Shown here one piece after another: positions 19,431 through 29,174 of a stretch of 64,000 bases of DNA. Source of the stretch: Thiothrix sp. Its GTDB lineage: Bacteria; Pseudomonadota; Gammaproteobacteria; Thiotrichales; Thiotrichaceae. The position numbers and the translations under genes are program-made. The DNA lies in contig NZ_JAQTLS010000001.1 of assembly GCF_028714775.1 (NCBI RefSeq), positions 1 through 64,000 on the forward strand. The letters are read 5' to 3'. The first letter of the stretch is position 1; each line of letters starts with the position of its first letter. The notes under the pieces were generated by a model. That model was not told where the DNA came from. It was given only the letters and a program-made list of their open reading frames with translations, and did no database searches.

Positions 19431-21461
19431 ATGGACGAACAGCGCAAGTCGGCAAACTGGAGAACCGCCGCCATCCAGCGGCGTTTCGTGTTTTTCGCAG
19501 GAATCGCTTTCCTGACAGGATTGGCAACTTTTTGGCTAGGCTTTAACCTGCCCGCCGCGCTGCCTTTCATCTGGAAGGCACTGGTTATCTTGCCATTTAC
19601 CATCCTGTTTTTTTGGCTCTCCTTGGGTTTCGTCACCGCTCTGGCGGGTTTGTGGGTGCTTATGCACGGCGACCGCTACCGCATCGCCAGCGCCCCCGGC
19701 ACACCCCTGCCGCAGATTCACGCGCATGAAACCACCGCGATCCTGATTCCGATCTATAACGAAGACATTGCCTATGTCTACGCAGGCATAAAGAGCATCT
19801 ACCAATCGTTGGAAAAGACCGGGTATTTGCAACACTTCGAGTTTTACATCCTCTCGGACTCGGATGATGCCAGTAACTGGCTGCGCGAAGAGGCCGCGTG
19901 GTCAGCACTGTGCCGTGACCTCGGCAATACCGAACGCATCCACTACCGCCGCCGCAAACACCGCACCAAGAAAAAAAGCGGCAATGTCATGGATTTCTGC
20001 CGCCGCTGGGGACGCCGACACCCTTACATGGTGGTTCTCGATGCCGACAGCCTGATCACAGGTGACGCACTGGTACGCATGGTCGACGCAATGGAGCGCA
20101 ACCCGCGTGTTGGCTTAGTGCAAACTCCGTTGTACACCATCGGGTTGGATACGCTGTACGCTCGCGGGCAACAGTTCGTCAACCGCCTCTACGGGCCAGT
20201 ATTCTTTGCCGGATTGCATTTCTGGTGGCTGGGCGAAAGCCAGTACTGGGGGCATAACGTCATCATCCGCACCCAAGCGTTCATGGCGCATTGCCACCTG
20301 CCCAAACTGCCAGAAGGCGGCAAACTCGGCGGGGAAATCCTCAGCCATGACTTTGTGGAAGCCGCCCTGCTTAACCGCGCTGGCTGGGAAACGTGGTTAG
20401 CTTACGACCTAGAAGGCAGCTTCGAGCGTCCACCGCCAAGCCTGACCGATGCACTCAAACGTGACCGCCGCTGGTGTCAGGGCAACCTGCAACACTGGCT
20501 GATCATCTGGTCGCACGGCATTCCTAACCTGCACCGCTTCTTGTTACTGGGCGGCATTATGTCCTACCTCAGTTCCTTGATTTGGTTAGGCTGGCTGCTG
20601 GTATTGACCACCATTGCGGTGTTTTACCCCAAGCTGACATTGATCCCGCTGACGGCAGGGAATAGTGCCTTGCTGGTGTTGACCATTATCTTGCTGTTTT
20701 TCTACAAAACCTTCGGCTTGGCTTTGGCTGCCCGCAAGAAAAATGTGGATAAATTCGGCGGTGTGGAAGGGCTAGCCGCGAGTGTCAGCACCGAAACAGC
20801 GCTCTCAATGCTCACTGCCCCCGTGGTCATGATGTATTACAGCAAGTTTGTATTACAAATATTGCAGGGCAAACGCGCAACGTGGGGTACGCAGCAACGG
20901 ACTGGCGGTAGCGGTTTGGCCTTCGGTGATGCCATGCGTGAATACGGTTGGGTCAGCAGCATCGGCTTGCTGTGGACACTGATTTTGGCGGTATTTAACC
21001 CGATGGCTTTCCTGTGGATGTCGCCAGTACTGGCGGGACTCGCACTCGCCGTACCAATGGGAATGCTGACCAGCATCCAGACCAGCCTGCAAAGTAAGCT
21101 GTTCCGCACCCCGGATGAAGTCGCACCCGATTTCATCCTGCAAGCCTTTGAAGAAAACCATGCGCAACTGCTGAACAACCCATGCATTTCCACCCGCGAC
21201 CTCTTCACCCGCGTAATTGTTGATCCGCTGGCCTTCAAGCAGCACATGACTTACATCCCGCAACGCTCCAATGTCCCGGCGTCTACGCGCCAACAACGGG
21301 CGGAATGGATGGTACGCTTGTTGGAACAAGGCCCCAGCGCCATTTCTAACAGCGAACGGCTGGTGATTCTGGAAGATGCGGATATGCTCACGCAACTCCA
21401 CACGCAGGTCTGGCAATTACCGGAAACGCAGTTCCACGAGCAGTGGATGTCAAAGCTTTAA
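19431..21461 (+). CDS. opgH: Glucans biosynthesis glucosyltransferase OpgH
   Basis: A 676-residue inner-membrane family 2 glucosyltransferase that polymerises and exports OPG backbone from UDP-glucose. Two membrane segments (about 20-75) precede the catalytic domain. Motifs are IPIYNED, the acidic VLDADSLITGD near 202, ILSHDFVEAALL near 305 and KRDRRWCQGNLQHW near 344. Several membrane segments then follow to about residue 560. The C-terminal NSERLVILEDADMLTQLHTQVW matches the OpgH tail. It is shorter than the 847-residue E. coli protein, mainly at the N-terminus. The pathway partners opgG and opgC are adjacent. Confidence 0.95.
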   Translation: MDEQRKSANWRTAAIQRRFVFFAGIAFLTGLATFWLGFNLPAALPFIWKALVILPFTILFFWLSLGFVTALAGLWVLMHGDRYRIASAPGTPLPQIHAHETTAILIPIYNEDIAYVYAGIKSIYQSLEKTGYLQHFEFYILSDSDDASNWLREEAAWSALCRDLGNTERIHYRRRKHRTKKKSGNVMDFCRRWGRRHPYMVVLDADSLITGDALVRMVDAMERNPRVGLVQTPLYTIGLDTLYARGQQFVNRLYGPVFFAGLHFWWLGESQYWGHNVIIRTQAFMAHCHLPKLPEGGKLGGEILSHDFVEAALLNRAGWETWLAYDLEGSFERPPPSLTDALKRDRRWCQGNLQHWLIIWSHGIPNLHRFLLLGGIMSYLSSLIWLGWLLVLTTIAVFYPKLTLIPLTAGNSALLVLTIILLFFYKTFGLALAARKKNVDKFGGVEGLAASVSTETALSMLTAPVVMMYYSKFVLQILQGKRATWGTQQRTGGSGLAFGDAMREYGWVSSIGLLWTLILAVFNPMAFLWMSPVLAGLALAVPMGMLTSIQTSLQSKLFRTPDEVAPDFILQAFEENHAQLLNNPCISTRDLFTRVIVDPLAFKQHMTYIPQRSNVPASTRQQRAEWMVRLLEQGPSAISNSERLVILEDADMLTQLHTQVWQLPETQFHEQWMSKL

Positions 21462-21473
21462 CGCCCAAAAGAA

Positions 21474-21496
21474 AGCCCGGACAAACCGGGCTTTTT
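21474..21496. terminator. Bidirectional terminator between opgH and nrdB
   Basis: AAAGCCCGG and CCGGGCTTT form a perfect stem with a 5-base loop. A T-run follows on the plus strand, and TTTCTTTT follows on the minus strand, so it can serve both convergent genes. Confidence 0.9.
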
Positions 21497-21516
21497 TCAT
21501 TGCAGCGACAGCAGAA

Positions 21517-22812
21517 TCAATCCCACTTCAACGCCCCACCCGTTTGGTATTCAGTCACACGGGTTTCAAAGAAGTTCTTTTCCTTGCGCATGTTGGATTG
21601 CTCATCCAGCCACGGCAGCGCGTTTTGTGCGCCGGGGAACGGTTCATCCATTCCTAACTGACGCGCACGGCGGTTGGCAATGAAACGGAACTGTTCGTGA
21701 TGGTCTTGCGCTGAATAGCCGAGGATCGGTTTCGGCAACAAGTATTTGGCATAACCCATTTCCGCCGCTTCGGCTTCGTCCCACATATCGCGAACGGCTT
21801 GCGGATCGAGCTTGACGTTTTCTTCCTGCATGATTTGGCGTACTACGCGGATGCCGAAGGAGCAGTGCAGCACTTCGTCGCGCATGATGTATTGTAACTG
21901 CTCGGCAGTGCCTTTCATCATGCCACGGCGTTGCAGGGCAAAAATCGGCGAGAAGCCGTTGTAGAACCAGCAACCTTCAAAAATACCGGCAAAGAACGTA
22001 TACGACAGCACGAAATTGTGCAGATCGTCAGCATTCTTCAAGTCGATGTCGTGGCGCAACGCATCATTCAAACGGCGGTTGCTGATCTGGATTTTGGCAT
22101 TGATTTCCGGTACGACGCGGTAGCGGTTGTAGATTTCACCTTGGTCGAGGCCGATGGTTTCGATGCAATGTTGGTACGTCCACGTATGCAGCGCTTCCTC
22201 GTATACCTGCCGCGCTTGGTAAATTTGCAGTTCCGGCGCAGTCATTTTTTCCATGACTGCAAGGCCGATGTTGCGCATGGCGAGGATGTCGGAAGTGGTG
22301 AGGTAAGCGAGCACGTTTTCGTACACATGCAGCTCTTCGGGCGTCAGTTTGTGATGGTAATCATGCACATCCTGAGCCATGTTGATGTCGAGCGGTGTCC
22401 AGTGATTTTTGTTGGCATTGAGGAAAAACTCCCATGCCCACGGGTACTTGAATGGCGCAAGTTGGTTAATGTCGCCACTGCCGTTGACGACGCGCTTATC
22501 TTCGGCGCGGATCGGCTGTTGAGGTTTGAAAGGCTCTGGCGCGAACGGCTTACGTTCAGCCCGTGTGCTTATCGTAGCGGCTTCCACATGCCCGTCCGTG
22601 TTGCTGGAAGCCGCGCCAATTACCGCCGTTGCAAACGCCGCCGACTCCGCTGGCGACTCAATTGCGACTTGGGTTTTTGCACTGAGCTCACTTTCATCTA
22701 CCTCCACAGTAGGTTCGTCAACAAAAGATTCGTTCACCACTTTCACTTGTGGCTTGTGACCGTTCGCGTGTGGCACGGGAGCGGCAAGGGGGTTGTCCCA
22801 GTTCAGCATCAT
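21517..22812 (-). CDS. nrdB: Class Ia ribonucleotide reductase, beta subunit
   Basis: A 431-residue R2 subunit that carries the diiron centre and tyrosyl radical. The carboxylate/His ligand motif YEEALHTWTY near residue 205 keeps the radical Tyr four residues after the His. Other ligands lie in GIFEGCWFYNG and RDEVLHCSFGIRV. The first ~115 residues form a low-complexity acidic/Ala-rich extension not needed for the fold. The C-terminal tail (EYQTGGALKWD), used to dock NrdA, is intact. It follows nrdA with a 62-bp gap and is surely cotranscribed. Confidence 0.96.
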   Translation of the reverse strand: MMLNWDNPLAAPVPHANGHKPQVKVVNESFVDEPTVEVDESELSAKTQVAIESPAESAAFATAVIGAASSNTDGHVEAATISTRAERKPFAPEPFKPQQPIRAEDKRVVNGSGDINQLAPFKYPWAWEFFLNANKNHWTPLDINMAQDVHDYHHKLTPEELHVYENVLAYLTTSDILAMRNIGLAVMEKMTAPELQIYQARQVYEEALHTWTYQHCIETIGLDQGEIYNRYRVVPEINAKIQISNRRLNDALRHDIDLKNADDLHNFVLSYTFFAGIFEGCWFYNGFSPIFALQRRGMMKGTAEQLQYIMRDEVLHCSFGIRVVRQIMQEENVKLDPQAVRDMWDEAEAAEMGYAKYLLPKPILGYSAQDHHEQFRFIANRRARQLGMDEPFPGAQNALPWLDEQSNMRKEKNFFETRVTEYQTGGALKWD

Positions 22813-22874
22813 ATTTTATCTCTCCTGAATTCTTAACGCCAACTAAACACTGTTAGTCGCTATTTTTTTATTCT

Positions 22875-25800
22875 TTACTGGCACGCTTCGCAGTCTGGAT
22901 CAAGCAACGAACACGCCTTCGGTGCTTCTGACCCTACCGATACCAGATTTGCTGCCCGCTTGATCCCTGCCATGCTATTGGCAGCAGAAGAATCATCCGA
23001 ACTGGTCTTTTCCGCGCCAGTAGCGCCCAAAGTACGCAGGTAATAGGTAGTTTTCAGCCCGCGTACCCATGCCAGTTTGTAGAGGTTGTCGAGTTTCGTG
23101 CCGTTCGGCTCTTTCATGTACAGGTTGAGGGATTGGCCTTGGTCGATCCATTTCTGGCGGCGGCTGGCAGCTTCGACCAGCCAGCGGGCGTCGATTTCAA
23201 ACGCGGTGGCATACTTGGCCTTGACCGCATCTGGCACACGGTCAAGCGGTTGCAACGAACCGTCGAAGTATTTGAGGTCGTTGATCATTACTTCATCCCA
23301 CATGCCGAGTGCTTTCAAGTCTTGCACCAGATACGGGTTGATGACGGTGAATTCGCCCGACAGGTTGGATTTGACGAACAGGTTCTGGTAGGTCGGTTCG
23401 ATGGATTGCGACACGCCGCAGATGTTGGAAATGGTCGCGGTCGGGGCAATCGCCATCACGTTGGAGTTGCGCATCCCCTGCGTTTTGACTTGGTTGCGCA
23501 GTGCGTCCCAGTCTAGCGTTTGGGTGTGGTCAACGATGAAGTATTCGCCGCGCTCTTCGCCCAGCAATTCCAACGAGTCGATAGGCAGGATGCCCTTGCT
23601 CCACAACGAGCCGTTGTAGCTCGGATATTTGCCGCGTTCTGCCGCAAGGTTGCTGGAGGCACGGATGGCGAAATAGGACACCGCTTCCATGCTTTGGTCG
23701 GCGAATTCCACCGCTTCGGTCGAGGCGTAGGCAAGGTTCATTTTGTACAGCGCGTCTTGGAAACCCATGATGCCCATACCGACCGGACGGTGACGCAGGT
23801 TCGATTTCCTCGCTTGCGGCACGCTGTAGTAGTTGTAGTCGATGACGTTATCCAGCATCCGCATCGCCGTGGTCACGGTGCGTTCCAGTTTCGCCACGTC
23901 GAGCTTGCCGTCGATGACGTGTGCGGTCAGGTTGACCGAGCCGAGGTTGCAAACCGCAATTTCGCTGTCATTGGTATGCAGGGTGATTTCGGTACACAGG
24001 TTGGAGCTGTGCACCACACCCATGTGCTGGTTGGTGTAGCGGATGTTGCACGGGTCTTTGAAAGTAATCCACGGATGCCCGGTTTCAAAGATCATGCCCA
24101 GCATTTTGCGCCATAGGGTCAGTGCTTTGACCTTGCGGTGTAGCTTGATTTCGCCGCGTTCGGCCTTGGCTTCATATTCCTTGTAACGCGCTTCAAACGC
24201 CTTGCCGGTCAGGTCGTGCAGGTCAGGCGCGTCGTCCGGCGAGAACAGCGTCCAATCACCTTCTGCCGCCACGCGCTTCATGAACAGGTCAGGAATCCAG
24301 TTGGCGGTGTTCATGTCGTGGGTACGGCGGCGCTCGTCGCCCGTGTTTTTGCGCAGTTCGAGGAAGTCTTCGATGTCGATGTGCCAGGTTTCGAGGTAGG
24401 CACAGACTGCGCCTTTGCGCTTGCCGCCATTGTGAGCCAGCGCCGCCGTAGTCATGTAAGACTCGTCGCCTTCCACAATCAGGTCGAATACGAATGGTAG
24501 GGTCGGAATGGTCTCCACACTACGCACCCGACTGAACACGCAACCATTGTAGGTCAACCAGTTACGCTTCTCGACAGGTTGGCAATCAACCAACGCCGCT
24601 ATTTCTGGCACGGCAGGAATACGGATGTCGAACGCCTTGGTTACACCGTTAAATTCGATTGCTGTGCCATCAGAACGTGTACCTGTATGGGCATTCTCAC
24701 GTTCACGGTATTGCCCAGCCGTTGGTACACCCAAACGCAAGCACTGGTAACGCAAGCCTTCAGCCAGTTGACGCGAGGTATTGGTGAAATACATTTCCTT
24801 GCCGCGACTTACACCGCCGTCGGTTTCCAACAAGCCTTGAATCAAAGCCAATGTTTGCGCTTGTGGCAAATGGCTGAAACGGCGCGAAATACGCTTTTCG
24901 CCCTGAGCGTTGTAAATATCATCATAGGTAAACGGCAACGTTGCTGCACCCGCGCCAACAATGCGCCCGTTAGTGGCATTACGCACCACGCCGCGACCGC
25001 TTGCCCAATGGATTTGCGCGTAAGTTTCGCCACGTGCTGTTTCCCAGCAATGGATACCACGTTCAACCAAATAGTCACGCACGAAATCGAGGTGTGAGTC
25101 ATTTTGCGGATTGCCGGAAACACCCCACTGCATCCCGTCCTTGGACAAATGCCCATCACCCAACAAAATACCGTACAGCCGTGCATCTTCTGCGTCGAAG
25201 CCTTCCACCATCACGGTTTCGGTCGGGATCACTTGCGCAACGTAATCGCCTTGCTGCAATTGACCAGCTTCCGCCCATTCAGGTTTGACCTTGCCTTTTT
25301 CCAGCCAGTTGAGGGTACGGCTGTTGGCTTGCTCCAACGGCACACCACGGATGGCGTAGAACGGATGGCCTGCGGTAACTTTCACTGGCTCGATGGAATG
25401 TTTTACATCGACGGCAACCATTGCATCGTGCTGGTTGTACACCATTGCCCGTTTGACTTCACGGTACGTGCCGCTGATTCCCAGCACCAAGTCGCCTTCC
25501 TTCACCTCGCGGATAGCTTTAATGCCATCAGCCGTATGGATGCAGGTATCCGGTGCGAAACACTGGTTCACCGCTACCGCCGTATCATTCGCCACCTTCA
25601 AGAACGGCACGACACCTTGCGACTTGCCATTCGTGCCCTTGATGTGCGCCCCCATGCCGCGCACCCGTGACCAGTCATTACCCAAACCACCGGCGTATTT
25701 CGACAGCAAGGCATTGTCTTTGATCGCGTCGTAAATGCCTTCCAGATGATCGGCAACCGTGGTCAGGTAGCAAGATGACAACTGCGGGCGCAACGTGCCG

Positions 25801-26885
25801 GAGTTGAACAAGGTCGGCGTGCTGCTCATGAAATCGAAGCTGGACAGCAGGTTGTAAAACTCAATCGCCCGGTCTTCCCGCTCGACTTCGTTGATTGCCA
25901 AGCCCATTGCCACGCGCATGAAAAACACCTGCGGCAGCTCGAAACGCACCCCGTCGTGATGCAGGAAATAGCGGTCATACAAGGTTTGCAAGCCGAGGTA
26001 AGTGAACTGCAAATCGCGTTCCGGTCGGATCGCAGCGCCCAGTTTCACTAGATCGTAACGCCCCAGATCATCCGCCAAGCGTTCTACCCGCACCCCGGTT
26101 TGGATGGTTTTTTTCAGGACTTCCGGGTACAGCTCAATCATTTCGTGCTGGGTCGCTTCGGTATGATGGCCTTCGAGGAAACTCAGGGCTTCTCGGCGCA
26201 AGCTATCCATCAACATCCGCGCGGCAGCTTGCGAATAATTTGGTTCGCGGTCAATCAGCACGCGGGTACTGATTACCAACGCGGTTGCCACTTCTTTCTC
26301 AGAAATGCCGTCGTAGAGGTTGCGCATGGTGGCCGTCATGACCTGTTCGGCGCTGACGCCTTCCAGCCCTTCGACTGCTTCTGCCACGATCTTACGCAGG
26401 CGCTCTTCGTCCAGCGGTTTCAGGTCGCCGGAAGCGTTTTTAACGTGGATGATGTTTTCGGATTTCTTGCCTTTTTTCTTGCTCTTGGCATCTTTTTCAG
26501 CACGCAAACGGGCGCGTTCGGCGCGGTACAGCACGTAACTCCGCGCTACTTTGTGCTCACCGGCACGCATCAGCGCCAGTTCCACTTGGTCTTGGATGTC
26601 TTCGATATGCACCATGCCGCCTTCCGGGGTACGGCGCAGCAAGGCTTCCAGCACCTGTTCGGTGAGCTTGCGCACGGTGTCGTGGATGCGGGCAGAACCG
26701 GACGCTTGGCTGCCTTCCACATCGAGGAATGCCTTGGTCATGGCAATCTGGATTTTGCTGCCGTCAAAGTCTGTGACCTGCCCATTGCGGCGGATAACCT
26801 TGCATTTGATCTGTGTTTGGACGGGTGAAATGGCGTAGGCGGCTGAGCCTTTTAGTGTTGTTTCCTGTACGCTGGCAGCTTGCAT
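22875..26885 (-). CDS. nrdA: Class Ia ribonucleotide reductase, alpha subunit, with in-frame intein
   Basis: The reading frame encodes 1336 residues; removal of the 378-residue intein leaves 958, normal for NrdA. N-terminal ATP-cone regulatory sequences (from about residue 27 and again near 145) control overall activity. The catalytic barrel follows: SSFDFMSSTPTLFNSGT, SSCYLTTV with a catalytic Cys, then after the intein HSSNLCTEI and the conserved N-x-C/MGIMGFQDALY segments. The C-terminus DPDCEACQ supplies the redox-active Cys pair reduced by thioredoxin or glutaredoxin. The intein interrupts the conserved VNQ-GGKRKGA site. The promoter carries NrdR-type boxes. Confidence 0.96.
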   Translation of the reverse strand: MQAASVQETTLKGSAAYAISPVQTQIKCKVIRRNGQVTDFDGSKIQIAMTKAFLDVEGSQASGSARIHDTVRKLTEQVLEALLRRTPEGGMVHIEDIQDQVELALMRAGEHKVARSYVLYRAERARLRAEKDAKSKKKGKKSENIIHVKNASGDLKPLDEERLRKIVAEAVEGLEGVSAEQVMTATMRNLYDGISEKEVATALVISTRVLIDREPNYSQAAARMLMDSLRREALSFLEGHHTEATQHEMIELYPEVLKKTIQTGVRVERLADDLGRYDLVKLGAAIRPERDLQFTYLGLQTLYDRYFLHHDGVRFELPQVFFMRVAMGLAINEVEREDRAIEFYNLLSSFDFMSSTPTLFNSGTLRPQLSSCYLTTVADHLEGIYDAIKDNALLSKYAGGLGNDWSRVRGMGAHIKGTNGKSQGVVPFLKVANDTAVAVNQCFAPDTCIHTADGIKAIREVKEGDLVLGISGTYREVKRAMVYNQHDAMVAVDVKHSIEPVKVTAGHPFYAIRGVPLEQANSRTLNWLEKGKVKPEWAEAGQLQQGDYVAQVIPTETVMVEGFDAEDARLYGILLGDGHLSKDGMQWGVSGNPQNDSHLDFVRDYLVERGIHCWETARGETYAQIHWASGRGVVRNATNGRIVGAGAATLPFTYDDIYNAQGEKRISRRFSHLPQAQTLALIQGLLETDGGVSRGKEMYFTNTSRQLAEGLRYQCLRLGVPTAGQYRERENAHTGTRSDGTAIEFNGVTKAFDIRIPAVPEIAALVDCQPVEKRNWLTYNGCVFSRVRSVETIPTLPFVFDLIVEGDESYMTTAALAHNGGKRKGAVCAYLETWHIDIEDFLELRKNTGDERRRTHDMNTANWIPDLFMKRVAAEGDWTLFSPDDAPDLHDLTGKAFEARYKEYEAKAERGEIKLHRKVKALTLWRKMLGMIFETGHPWITFKDPCNIRYTNQHMGVVHSSNLCTEITLHTNDSEIAVCNLGSVNLTAHVIDGKLDVAKLERTVTTAMRMLDNVIDYNYYSVPQARKSNLRHRPVGMGIMGFQDALYKMNLAYASTEAVEFADQSMEAVSYFAIRASSNLAAERGKYPSYNGSLWSKGILPIDSLELLGEERGEYFIVDHTQTLDWDALRNQVKTQGMRNSNVMAIAPTATISNICGVSQSIEPTYQNLFVKSNLSGEFTVINPYLVQDLKALGMWDEVMINDLKYFDGSLQPLDRVPDAVKAKYATAFEIDARWLVEAASRRQKWIDQGQSLNLYMKEPNGTKLDNLYKLAWVRGLKTTYYLRTLGATGAEKTSSDDSSAANSMAGIKRAANLVSVGSEAPKACSLLDPDCEACQ
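24429..25562 (-). other. Intein with LAGLIDADG homing endonuclease in NrdA, Gly at +1
   Basis: This 378-residue in-frame insertion starts at Cys442 (CFAPDTCIHTADG, block A). It has the block B motif VTAGHPFYAI with the T-x-x-H residues, block F VFDLIVEGDESYM and ends ALAHN with penultimate His and terminal Asn. Two dodecapeptide motifs of a homing endonuclease (LYGILLGDGHL and LIQGLLETDGGV) keep both acidic residues, so the endonuclease may be active. The flanks are VNQ before and GGKRKGA after. The first C-extein residue is Gly (GGC), whereas standard splicing needs Cys, Ser or Thr there. Codon usage is more A+T-rich than the host gene. Confidence 0.93.
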
Positions 26886-26933
26886 TTTTATCCTCAGTGT
26901 CGAAACACGGCTTGGTTGATTTCTTTTGGATAA

Positions 26934-26981
26934 ATACTATAGGATGTGTCTTTATGAGGGGTCAAGCACAAGATGTTGTCA
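26934..26981 (-). promoter_or_regulatory. nrdAB promoter with tandem NrdR-type boxes
   Basis: On the minus strand a -35-like TTGACC (26960-26965) and -10-like TATAGT (26936-26941) are 18 bases apart. Two imperfect 16-bp copies of the NrdR box consensus ACAC-N8-GTGT lie at 26966-26981 (TGACAACATCTTGTGC) and 26934-26949 (ACACATCCTATAGTAT). They are 16 bases apart, the usual three-turn spacing for NrdR, and the second covers the -10. Each matches about 12 of 16 consensus positions. Confidence 0.65.
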
Positions 26982-26998
26982 TTAACTTGTGCAAAGCC

Positions 26999-27007
26999 TG
27001 TGGATAA
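26999..27007 (-). promoter_or_regulatory. Perfect DnaA box upstream of nrdA
   Basis: TTATCCACA on the minus strand is an exact consensus DnaA box, about 115 bases before the nrdA start and 58 bases upstream of the -10. DnaA regulation of nrdAB is established in E. coli. The remaining 311-bp gap between nrdA and the EF-hand gene shows no further gene. Confidence 0.55.
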
Positions 27008-27196
27008 CTGACAAAAATCCAGTACCAGTACGGACTTCAGGCATTCAGCCCCTACCTGAAAAATTTTTCAAATGTGGGCTGGCTTACGATTGTATTTTTC
27101 GATACTTACACCCACATTCAGCAGCTTCACGTACAATCACGCTGGTCAGGCAACTGATCACTAAGCAACCCTTACCGACTTATTGGAGAGCACTGA

Positions 27197-27661
27197 ATGA
27201 ATACAAAAACATCACTGAAACTGGCTTTAGGGACAACCATCGCAGCGGGTATCGCACTCGGCGCGGCACAAGCACTTGCTGACAATCCATTTTCTGCCAA
27301 AACACTGGACAGCGGCTACATGCAACTGGCAGAAAACAAAGCAGGCGGCGAAATGAAATGCGGCGCGGGCATGTGCGGCGGCAACATGAAAAAAGGCGCT
27401 GCGGCTGACGGCGACACTTGCCCTGCTGACACCGACAAAGATGGCAAAGTGACCAAGGAAGAGTTCCTCAAGCACCACGAAGCCATGTTTGACGAAGCCG
27501 ACGCCAACAAAGACGGCTCGCTAGATGCTGACGAGCGCAAAGCCCTGCACAGCAAAATGGCAGAAGGCAAATGCGGCGGCGCGAAAACTGACGATGCAGC
27601 CAAGCAAGAAACTCCGGCTGCTGCACCCGCAGCAGCACCAGCGGCGGAAGAGAAAAAGTAA
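27197..27661 (+). CDS. EF-hand protein with HvfA-like Cys-Gly motifs (candidate RiPP metallophore precursor)
   Basis: A 154-residue exported protein with GGAGAG about 7 bases before the ATG. A signal peptide (cleavage near ALA, residue 28) is followed by NPFSAKTLDSGYMQLAENK, which resembles the N-terminal mature region of HvfA-type proteins. Next come Cys-Gly motifs KCGAGMCGG (Cys55, Cys60), two EF-hand loops (78-89 DTDKDGKVTKEE and 102-113 DANKDGSLDADE), then EGKCGG (Cys126) and an Ala/Pro tail. The E-G-K-C-G type motif is what MNIO enzymes (HvfB) modify to oxazolone/thioamide in Haemophilus HvfA. The hvfB and hvfC homologues lie 1.7 kb downstream. A precursor role is inference. Confidence 0.7.
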   Translation: MNTKTSLKLALGTTIAAGIALGAAQALADNPFSAKTLDSGYMQLAENKAGGEMKCGAGMCGGNMKKGAAADGDTCPADTDKDGKVTKEEFLKHHEAMFDEADANKDGSLDADERKALHSKMAEGKCGGAKTDDAAKQETPAAAPAAAPAAEEKK

Positions 27662-27680
27662 TTTTTCCAACTGCTGATAA

Positions 27681-27728
27681 CCTCCCCCGCCCTGACCATA
27701 GCCGCAGGGAACGGGGGGAGGTGTTTTC
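27681..27728 (+). terminator. Terminator after the EF-hand/HvfA-like gene
   Basis: CCTCCCCCG and CGGGGGGAGG form a long stem containing an inner CCTG/CAGG pair, followed by TGTTTTC. It separates the precursor-like gene from the convergent DegP-like gene. Confidence 0.75.
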
Positions 27729-27740
27729 ATGACTGCCGTA

Positions 27741-29174
27741 CTATTCCCACCCCTCAACATCCGCCGATTGTGGCTTTTTAATTTCGTACTTTTCTAACAG
27801 CTTATCGTGTTCGCTCTCTGCTAACTGACGGTTGATGACAACCTGATAGCCATTCCCACTTTCTAGCACAATGGTTTTGCTGCTTCCAAATTTGACCAAA
27901 CGGTGAAAGTCTTCAAAGCTGTCGAAGGTGCTGCCATTAACCGTGCTGATATTCATCGGCGCTGCCTCATGGAAGCCGATGTTGCTGGTGTAGGAAGGCA
28001 GCACGTGTACAATTTTCACATCATCTTTCGCATCAGAAAGCGCACCTGTTTCATCATCCGCAACGGATTCACAGACGGGGGCGGCGTGAGTGGCAAGAAA
28101 AACAAAGCCGCCAAAAATGAAGTAACGCGGCGTACTTTCCTTCAGCTTGGTGGAGCGGCTGCTTTTGTTCAGCTTAACGTTACGTTTAAGGTTGTAACCG
28201 TTACTGAGGATGTCGAGCGTGACAATATCATCCACTTGGCGTAAGTCGATGTGACTTTGAAAATTACTGTATTGCTTACCATTGGTTTGGATAAAACCTT
28301 CCTCGGTAATGGGTTTTCCGTCAATGGCGGTAATGACATCCCCCTTATCGAGCACTAACGCGGCATCGGTATGGGCGCACAGTTCATTAATCAAAATACC
28401 TGACTGCCTATCGGTCAATTTATGGTATTTTTTGTGGGTCGGATTAGTGATGAATTGGTAATCCAACCAAAGCTCAGGGATACCATCCAACGCGCCATCC
28501 TTCAAGTCTTCCAGTAATTGCTTGATCCGGGATGTGGGTATCAGGTAGCCAATATTCTCAAGCCCGTCAAAAAAATCTGATGCTATGCCCACCACTTTGC
28601 CATCAACGAGTGCTGGGCCACCGCCATTACCTGAATTAATTGCCGCATCCACTTGAATGGCCTGAAAAGTAAGGCCGCTATGCACATACGTGTGGTATTC
28701 AATCCGCGAAACAATACCTTGCGTAATACTCATGCTACTACCGCCAACCGGATAGCCATACAAACTGACTTTCTGCTCTGGAGTCGGTAAGTCACCCAAT
28801 TCCAACGGCGGCCTATCCGTGAAAAAGGACTCGTCTTTCAATTTCAAGATGGCAAGATTCGCTTCATGGGAAATGTTTTCAATTTCAGCCTCAAAACTCT
28901 TGGCTACCCCGTTGGGGCGGATACCAATATAAACGGCATTTTCTACCAATCCGGCAGTGGTGAGGATGCGCTTACCATCAATAATGAAACCTGTACCAAC
29001 GTGGGTATCCCATTCTGTACGCCATGGTGAGGACTCTTCGTAAGAAGTCATCGTTATGGTGATTTCGACAATCGAACGGCTGGGGTCGTTTACTGATGTA
29101 TTAGCGAGTGATGAAAGGGGAAAGAAAACCATTGCTACCCAAAACAGATAAATGATCCATTGTTGTCTTTTCAC
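27741..29174 (-). CDS. DegP/HtrA-like secreted pseudoprotease
   Basis: A 477-residue protein with a signal peptide (cut near SLA, residue 24), a trypsin-like HtrA fold region (about 35-215) and two PDZ-like regions (about 225-320 and 395-455). All three catalytic positions are changed. The His site reads ILTTAGLVENA instead of LTNAHVV. The Asp site reads HEANLAILKLK instead of TDLAVLK. The Ser site reads NSGNGGGPALV instead of PGNSGGP. Hence it should have no serine protease activity and may act as a chaperone or binding protein. It is more A+T-rich than its neighbours and lies against the surrounding plus-strand genes, between the HvfA-like gene and hvfBC. Confidence 0.8.
   Translation of the reverse strand: MKRQQWIIYLFWVAMVFFPLSSLANTSVNDPSRSIVEITITMTSYEESSPWRTEWDTHVGTGFIIDGKRILTTAGLVENAVYIGIRPNGVAKSFEAEIENISHEANLAILKLKDESFFTDRPPLELGDLPTPEQKVSLYGYPVGGSSMSITQGIVSRIEYHTYVHSGLTFQAIQVDAAINSGNGGGPALVDGKVVGIASDFFDGLENIGYLIPTSRIKQLLEDLKDGALDGIPELWLDYQFITNPTHKKYHKLTDRQSGILINELCAHTDAALVLDKGDVITAIDGKPITEEGFIQTNGKQYSNFQSHIDLRQVDDIVTLDILSNGYNLKRNVKLNKSSRSTKLKESTPRYFIFGGFVFLATHAAPVCESVADDETGALSDAKDDVKIVHVLPSYTSNIGFHEAAPMNISTVNGSTFDSFEDFHRLVKFGSSKTIVLESGNGYQVVINRQLAESEHDKLLEKYEIKKPQSADVEGWE

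Follow-up and report, generated by a model that had tools for sequence, protein, structure and literature searches.

An apparently mobile intein lineage with glycine at the +1 position in the class I ribonucleotide reductase NrdA of Thiothrix and other bacteria

Class 1 protein splicing uses Cys, Ser or Thr at the +1 position, and Hint domains without such a residue mostly cleave (PMC4031507, PMC7664689). Inteins without Cys1/Ser1 keep the +1 residue (PMC4031507). In class I ribonucleotide reductases (RNRs), a LAGLIDADG intein shown to splice is found in the R2 protein NrdB of Aquifex aeolicus, between Leu229 and Cys230, with Cys at +1 (PMC8772380). Type A BIL domains, on the other hand, are defined by a His-Asn end with no +1 nucleophile (PMC4031507) and by their location in hypervariable regions of non-conserved bacterial proteins (PMC7765530). 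For these domains, a direct attack of the C-extein amine on the thioester was proposed (PMC4031507). Their products are mostly cleaved, one BIL spliced only once its +1 Tyr became Cys (PMC4031507, PMC7664689), and type A BILs are also said to be unable to ligate (PMC7765530).

The window, a stretch of 64,000 nucleotides from Thiothrix sp. (GCF_028714775.1, contig NZ_JAQTLS010000001.1, positions 1 to 64,000), contains a class I nrdA gene (NF005544, 1663 bits; PF02867, PF00317 and ATP cones, from NCBIfam and Pfam) interrupted by an intein (Table 1). The coordinates given for it in the initial annotation are exact, and the spliced product would have the 958 aa proposed there. Cys1, the T-x-x-H of block B, the penultimate His and the terminal Asn (Asn378, codon 24429-24431) are all present in the sequence. 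Two Gly codons (GGC GGC) come directly after the intein and the C-extein starts with GGKRKGA, so the +1 residue is Gly, as annotated, and has no side chain that could accept the acyl group in the standard way.

Table 1. Coordinates of the interrupted nrdA gene and of its intein in the window
Feature	Position	Strand	Evidence or remark
nrdB, small subunit, adjoining nrdA	21517..22812	-	NCBIfam/Pfam
nrdA, class I ribonucleotide reductase large subunit, intein-interrupted	22875..26885	-	precursor 1336 aa, spliced 958 aa
C-extein, 517 aa, begins GGKRKGAVCAYLETWH..., stop codon included	22875..24428	-	
Gly+1 codon GGC, first C-extein residue, in NrdA specificity loop 2	24426..24428	-	
Intein, 378 aa, ORF residues 442-819, in frame, no stop	24429..25562	-	empty site in relatives
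Block G end ALAHN, penultimate His and terminal Asn	24429..24443	-	Asn 58/58, His 57/58
Block F FVFDLIVEGDESYMT, Asp360 at F:4, invariant Thr371	24450..24494	-	both residues 58/58
LAGLIDADG homing endonuclease domain, approximate bounds (set by us)	24588..25235	-	PF14528, Foldseek
LAGLIDADG motif 2 LIQGLLETDGG	24813..24845	-	sequence
LAGLIDADG motif 1 LYGILLGDG	25152..25178	-	sequence
Block B VTAGHP, Thr63 and His66	25362..25379	-	both residues 58/58
Cys1, N-terminal nucleophile	25560..25562	-	58/58 distinct inteins
N-extein, 441 aa, C-terminal ...NDTAVAVNQ	25563..26885	-	

By alignment, the insertion site corresponds to the Gln442/Gly443 boundary of the Pseudomonas aeruginosa NrdA (5im3), residues 27-441 of the N-extein matching 31-442 and the C-extein matching 442-963. 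Loop 2 (Cys292, Arg298, Gly299 and Ala301 in Escherichia coli) is one of two loops linking the effector and substrate sites (PMC8772380). The Arg at +4 would be the counterpart of the E. coli Arg298, in a residue-by-residue match that is our own reading of the motif. From the 41 genomes of the order without an intein match, 20 were searched for the empty site, and VNQ-GGKR[KR]GA was uninterrupted in 19, with the 20th cut by a contig end. Since these 19 relatives show an uninterrupted site, the insert lies exactly between Gln and Gly. Two of them (G053 and G061) have an intein elsewhere in nrdA. Shifted intein boundaries were considered and rejected, as the 19 empty sites fit the Q/G boundary only, and taking the next Asn-Thr pair in the C-extein as the boundary would delete conserved NrdA. 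The flanks VNQ/GGKRKGA are the same in intein-bearing and empty genes, with GGRRRGS in one of 47 intein-bearing loci. Three loci of the same genus without the intein (L116, L136, L137) have GGKRRGA behind the insertion site instead of GGKRKGA, perhaps a homing-resistant variant.

In Pfam, the intein scores 24.4 bits with Hint_2, short of the cut-off of 28.4, and 34.4 bits with LAGLIDADG_3 (PF14528; cut-off 22.5). The structure of the intein with 15 extein residues per side, predicted from an alignment of 38 rows (A3), has a mean pLDDT of 88.6, low at both ends. Its best Foldseek matches are homing inteins, with E 4e-20 for the PI-SceI mini-precursor 1ef0 and E 2e-18 for the Tli VMA intein 7qsu, among others, and the endonuclease domain has hits to PI-SceI, TliVMA and I-DmoI; the prediction clearly shows an intein fold. 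Judging from the two motifs, the LAGLIDADG_3 match and the predicted fold, the endonuclease is apparently intact, in agreement with the initial annotation. By sequence, the best PDB match is the BIL domain 2lwy, a weak one (E 0.033 with a single sequence and 0.00085 with a profile). The F-block His of many inteins is absent, being replaced by Glu367 (E 48, R 5, A 3, H 1 and T 1 in 58 inteins).

Conservation was evaluated in a pool of 80 sources (L008-L029, L034-L090 and the window), of which 78 are complete, representing 58 distinct intein sequences. Cys1, Thr63, His66, Asp360, Tyr369, Thr371 and Asn378 are each present in all 58, and so are Gln-1, Gly+1 and Gly+2. This pooled count required GG behind the intein, which 78 of the 80 sources passed, the other two (L027 and L079) being cut by contig ends and none being dropped for another +1 residue; a count by match coordinates, with no GG requirement, gave the same result in 47 of 48 loci, one being cut by a contig end. 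The +1 codons are GGC (37), GGT (10), GGG (7) and GGA (4), and the use of all four indicates that the Gly residue is conserved, not the DNA. Gly+1 is therefore routine among the alleles at this site, one half of a possibility raised in the initial annotation; the other half, that such alleles splice, is our prediction. No Cys other than Cys1 is invariant among the 58 inteins.

The penultimate His is found in 57 of the 58, the exception being Thiothrix fructosivorans (L074:3001-4134), which has Ser there and is the only one with His at the F-block position, apparently a compensatory exchange.

All inteins are in frame with no stops, with lengths from 315 to 384 aa. In two species (L028 and L029), we found a degenerate form of 315 aa with both LAGLIDADG motifs damaged and the splicing residues kept, whose Hint parts have a dN/dS of 0.035-0.13. 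Nei-Gojobori estimates in 12 pairs were 0.045-0.18 for the whole intein (one pair saturated) and 0.03-0.08 for the Hint parts in 10 pairs (0.15 in one, one saturated), values that are rough because dS exceeds 1 in most pairs. Such low ratios indicate that the intein is under purifying selection, which acts on the protein.

Counting the genome of the window, 22 of the 63 genomes searched in the order contain the intein, which is complete at the site in 21 and cut by a contig end in one. In the class, 10 of 369 genomes have matches at E 1e-5, again counting that of the window; the weak partial match in G225 belongs to an intein in another gene. The scan of GTDB contigs recovered 48 loci in Gammaproteobacteria, Burkholderiales, Verrucomicrobiota and Chlamydiota, all 47 complete ones with VNQ/Cys...Asn/GG and the 48th cut by a contig end; it was seeded by two peptide patterns of the Gly+1 lineage and could miss distant relatives with another +1 residue. 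Trees were built with 44 of 48 complete sequences, leaving out four with short flanks, one of which was a Verrucomicrobia row. In the intein tree, Verrucomicrobiota and Chlamydiota fall beside Thiotrichaceae (support 93/89, under the starred level), whereas in the extein tree they group apart, with a branch of 0.68. The extein of T. fructosivorans is very near that of the window, but its intein has a branch of 1.15. Both trees are most simply read as horizontal transfer, the intein having entered the NrdA site more than once. Single cases of transfer could be binning errors, since many of these genomes are metagenome bins, and one locus labelled as Actinomycetes (L070) probably is such an error, its flanks resembling those of the Burkholderiaceae locus L071. 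Strain genomes free of this doubt are those of T. lacustris, T. caldifontis, T. eikelboomii, T. fructosivorans, Thiolinea disciformis and Thiofilum flexile.

As possible sources of the intein, we rejected phages (18 records, all below 60% identity), plasmids (no match) and viral contigs (no match in a search sensitive to close relatives only).

Considering its fold, blocks, mobility and setting, we classify the element as an intein that fails one defining test of class 1. It is an in-frame insert with a Hint fold (despite the Hint_2 score) and blocks A, B, F and G, absent from homologues, and its endonuclease domain and patchy, apparently horizontal distribution are those of a homing intein. 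With class 1 LAGLIDADG inteins such as PI-SceI (Sce VMA) and Tli VMA it shares the fold, Cys1, the T..H of block B, Asp at F:4, the His-Asn end, the endonuclease domain and its placement in an essential enzyme at a conserved site; the Thr and His of block B and the C-terminal Asn are in all 58 sequences, but the +1 residue, Cys, Ser or Thr in those inteins, is Gly in all 58. Class 2, where Cys1/Ser1 is lacking and the +1 nucleophile attacks directly, was rejected because Cys1 is present and +1 is Gly, and class 3, with Cys at F:4 and no Cys1, because Cys1 is present and F:4 is Asp in 58 of 58. Inteins without Cys1/Ser1 likewise miss one standard nucleophile, the opposite one, since the NrdA intein keeps Cys1 and lacks the +1. 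Like type A BIL domains, it has a His-Asn end with no +1 nucleophile; unlike them, it carries an endonuclease domain and interrupts a conserved housekeeping enzyme rather than a variable protein. The Aquifex intein shares with it the LAGLIDADG domain and a host in class I RNR, differing in the subunit and in its Cys+1. Among the open-access papers listed in literature searches, including the available parts of PMC4031507, PMC7765530, PMC7664689, PMC8772380, PMC2795772, PMC2988022 and PMC5784728, we did not find a Gly+1 intein or an intein at this NrdA site, although an earlier report is possible.

Other inteins served as a control for the +1 residue. Second inteins were found in six nrdA genes, in each case by reading whole frames, because the motif search detects canonical ends only. 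Eight of the 10 loci with frames above 1400 aa were read (all but L045 and L053). Five of them (L041, L042, L080, L132, L133) have Cys+1, at AV/C...HN/CNLGSVN, and one (L057) has Thr+1, at APTA/C...HN/TISN; four of the six genes also contain the Gly+1 intein. As these second inteins have Cys or Thr at +1, Gly+1 is tied to this lineage and not to nrdA. Using TIGR01443 in 398 genomes of the phylum, we obtained 22 matches to intein C-ends in 21 genomes, with Cys (16), Thr (3), Gly (1) or Lys (1) at +1 and one without the final Asn, a sample biased toward a +1 nucleophile because the model includes that position. The genome of the window had no TIGR01443 match at E 0.01.

We also asked which other RNRs are available to the hosts. 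In the genome of the window, nrdA is the sole PF02867 gene, with no nrdJ seen in that search, while class III nrdD is present at two loci. Both genes had been named in the initial annotation as something to look for, and only nrdD turned up. The survey covered 41 intein-bearing genomes, namely all 28 in which the two genome searches had found the intein, plus 13 of the 31 further contig-scan loci, which are those outside the genomes of the order already counted; absence means absence in two Pfam searches. We found nrdD in 5 of the 41 and a second PF02867 gene in 10, with both in one, so that some other RNR gene occurs in 14 genomes, that of the window included, and none was found in 27. Restricting the analysis to 24 good genomes (completeness of 90% or more and contamination of 5% or less), nrdD is found in four (G000, G051, G057, G058) and not in the other 20, and another PF02867 gene in three (G418, G197, G035). 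In the remaining 17, no RNR other than the interrupted nrdA was found. The nrdA assembly is doubtful in two of them (G020, where it appears to be divided between contigs, and G118, where it is frameshifted near the end), leaving 15 without these, and a third, G158, has an extra short fragment. Some of the sole-RNR genomes are in few contigs, one in G050 and two to four in G055, G059 and G060. With the interrupted nrdA as the only RNR found in 17 of 24 genomes, processing of the precursor must yield an active enzyme. This gene content shows productive processing, not the joining of the halves.

Since Cys1, the block B Thr and His, Asp at F:4 and the Asn end are conserved, thioester formation and Asn cyclisation are expected, and the lack of a side chain at +1 means that there is no block-G branched intermediate. 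In the route that we propose, Cys1 would attack the peptide bond of Gln-1 to give the thioester, and Asn378 would cyclise, freeing the C-extein as Gly-Gly-Lys... The co-folded halves of NrdA would keep the Gly amine beside the thioester, and this amine, the least hindered possible, would attack it directly, forming a native Gln-Gly bond and restoring loop 2. We infer that Gly is the best amine for this step and that the NrdA halves hold the ends together. It is the same direct route as the one proposed for type A BIL domains. The mostly cleaved products of such domains, the BIL that needed Cys at +1 to splice and the statement that type A BILs are unable to ligate count against it. From the initial annotation's three options (a non-canonical route, cleavage and reassociation of the halves, or compensation by another RNR), non-canonical splicing is the best-supported one. 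We lean to the view that a mobile, endonuclease-bearing intein lineage has adapted to a site without a +1 nucleophile and splices with no branched intermediate. More tentatively, and with somewhat more doubt than belief, we suggest that this widespread, mobile lineage represents a fourth intein type, which has done away with the C-extein nucleophile and joins the exteins by a direct, sortase-like attack of the N-terminal Gly-Gly amine on the Cys1 thioester once Asn has cyclised, the co-folded host enzyme acting as a clamp.

It is unlikely, in our opinion, that both ends are cleaved with no ligation and that the halves of NrdA remain associated non-covalently and active. The split NrdA of phage Aeh1 is reportedly active, which would be a precedent. 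In that phage, the mobE insertion divides nrdA into separate coding regions (PMC2988022), and the cleavage mostly attributed to Hint domains without a +1 nucleophile points in the same direction. However, the cut would be inside specificity loop 2, leaving new charged ends beside the loop arginine, and the VNQ/GGKRKGA flanks are kept in interrupted genes as in empty ones. We regard as similarly improbable that a surrogate hydroxyl or thiol, such as that of the intein Thr371 or the extein Cys+9, accepts the acyl group of Cys1 and then passes it to the Gly amine. Both residues are present in 58 of 58 sequences, and among the 22 other intein ends 18 have Ala at the place of Thr371 (our count), but Cys+9 is equally present in empty sites, F:4 is Asp instead of the class 3 Cys, Cys1 is the sole invariant Cys, and the Gly amine would be needed for the last step anyway.

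NrdD is an anaerobic enzyme. The two nrdD loci in the genome of the window, together with the other RNR genes in 14 of the 41 intein-bearing genomes, could suggest an inactive or decaying intein in a host dependent on another RNR. Compensation of this kind, as the initial annotation had it, may be available in the window genome, but it is not general given the 17 good genomes with no other RNR found, and the low dN/dS, the lack of stops and the kept splicing residues also make this reading very improbable. Even less credible is an error of sequencing or assembly, or removal of the insert at the RNA level. A base-call error hiding a Cys, Ser or Thr is refuted by the Gly+1 of all 58 distinct sequences, which come from many assemblies and use four different codons for it, and removal from the RNA does not agree with selection acting on the protein. 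An RNA intron was also rejected, there being no Rfam match at E 0.1 in positions 20500-28500 of the window.

The retention of a Gly+1 lineage in an essential enzyme means that either side-chain-free ligation works well in nature or the enzyme runs in two self-cut pieces. If the former is true, a route like that of type A BILs would serve here a housekeeping enzyme, and protein engineering would be made easier, since the junction could be left free of Cys, Ser and Thr.

The nrdD loci deserve a separate mention. In both loci of the genome of the window (L002-L005, contigs C39 and C46), the main NRDD frame stops near profile position 530 and the last 30 profile positions, corresponding to the glycyl-radical end, are in another reading frame, as is also the case in G051, G058 and G440. 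In C39, the ATG of the second frame overlaps the end of the first, as read by eye. From these frames, it looks like a class III reductase with the radical domain as a separate small protein. The nrdD of G057, on the other hand, matches positions 2-561 in a single frame with an internal TGA.

A Hint domain of 165 aa was also found in a phage tail-like protein (PF13550, PF23666; L114:4236-4730), inserted between GGGGKG and GGGGGGG. A search of 289 genomes of its class returned the domain itself and one weak partial match (E 8e-4), and phages and viral contigs returned none. The domain has Cys1...HN followed by Gly and, by its sequence, may be a second, separate Gly+1 case.
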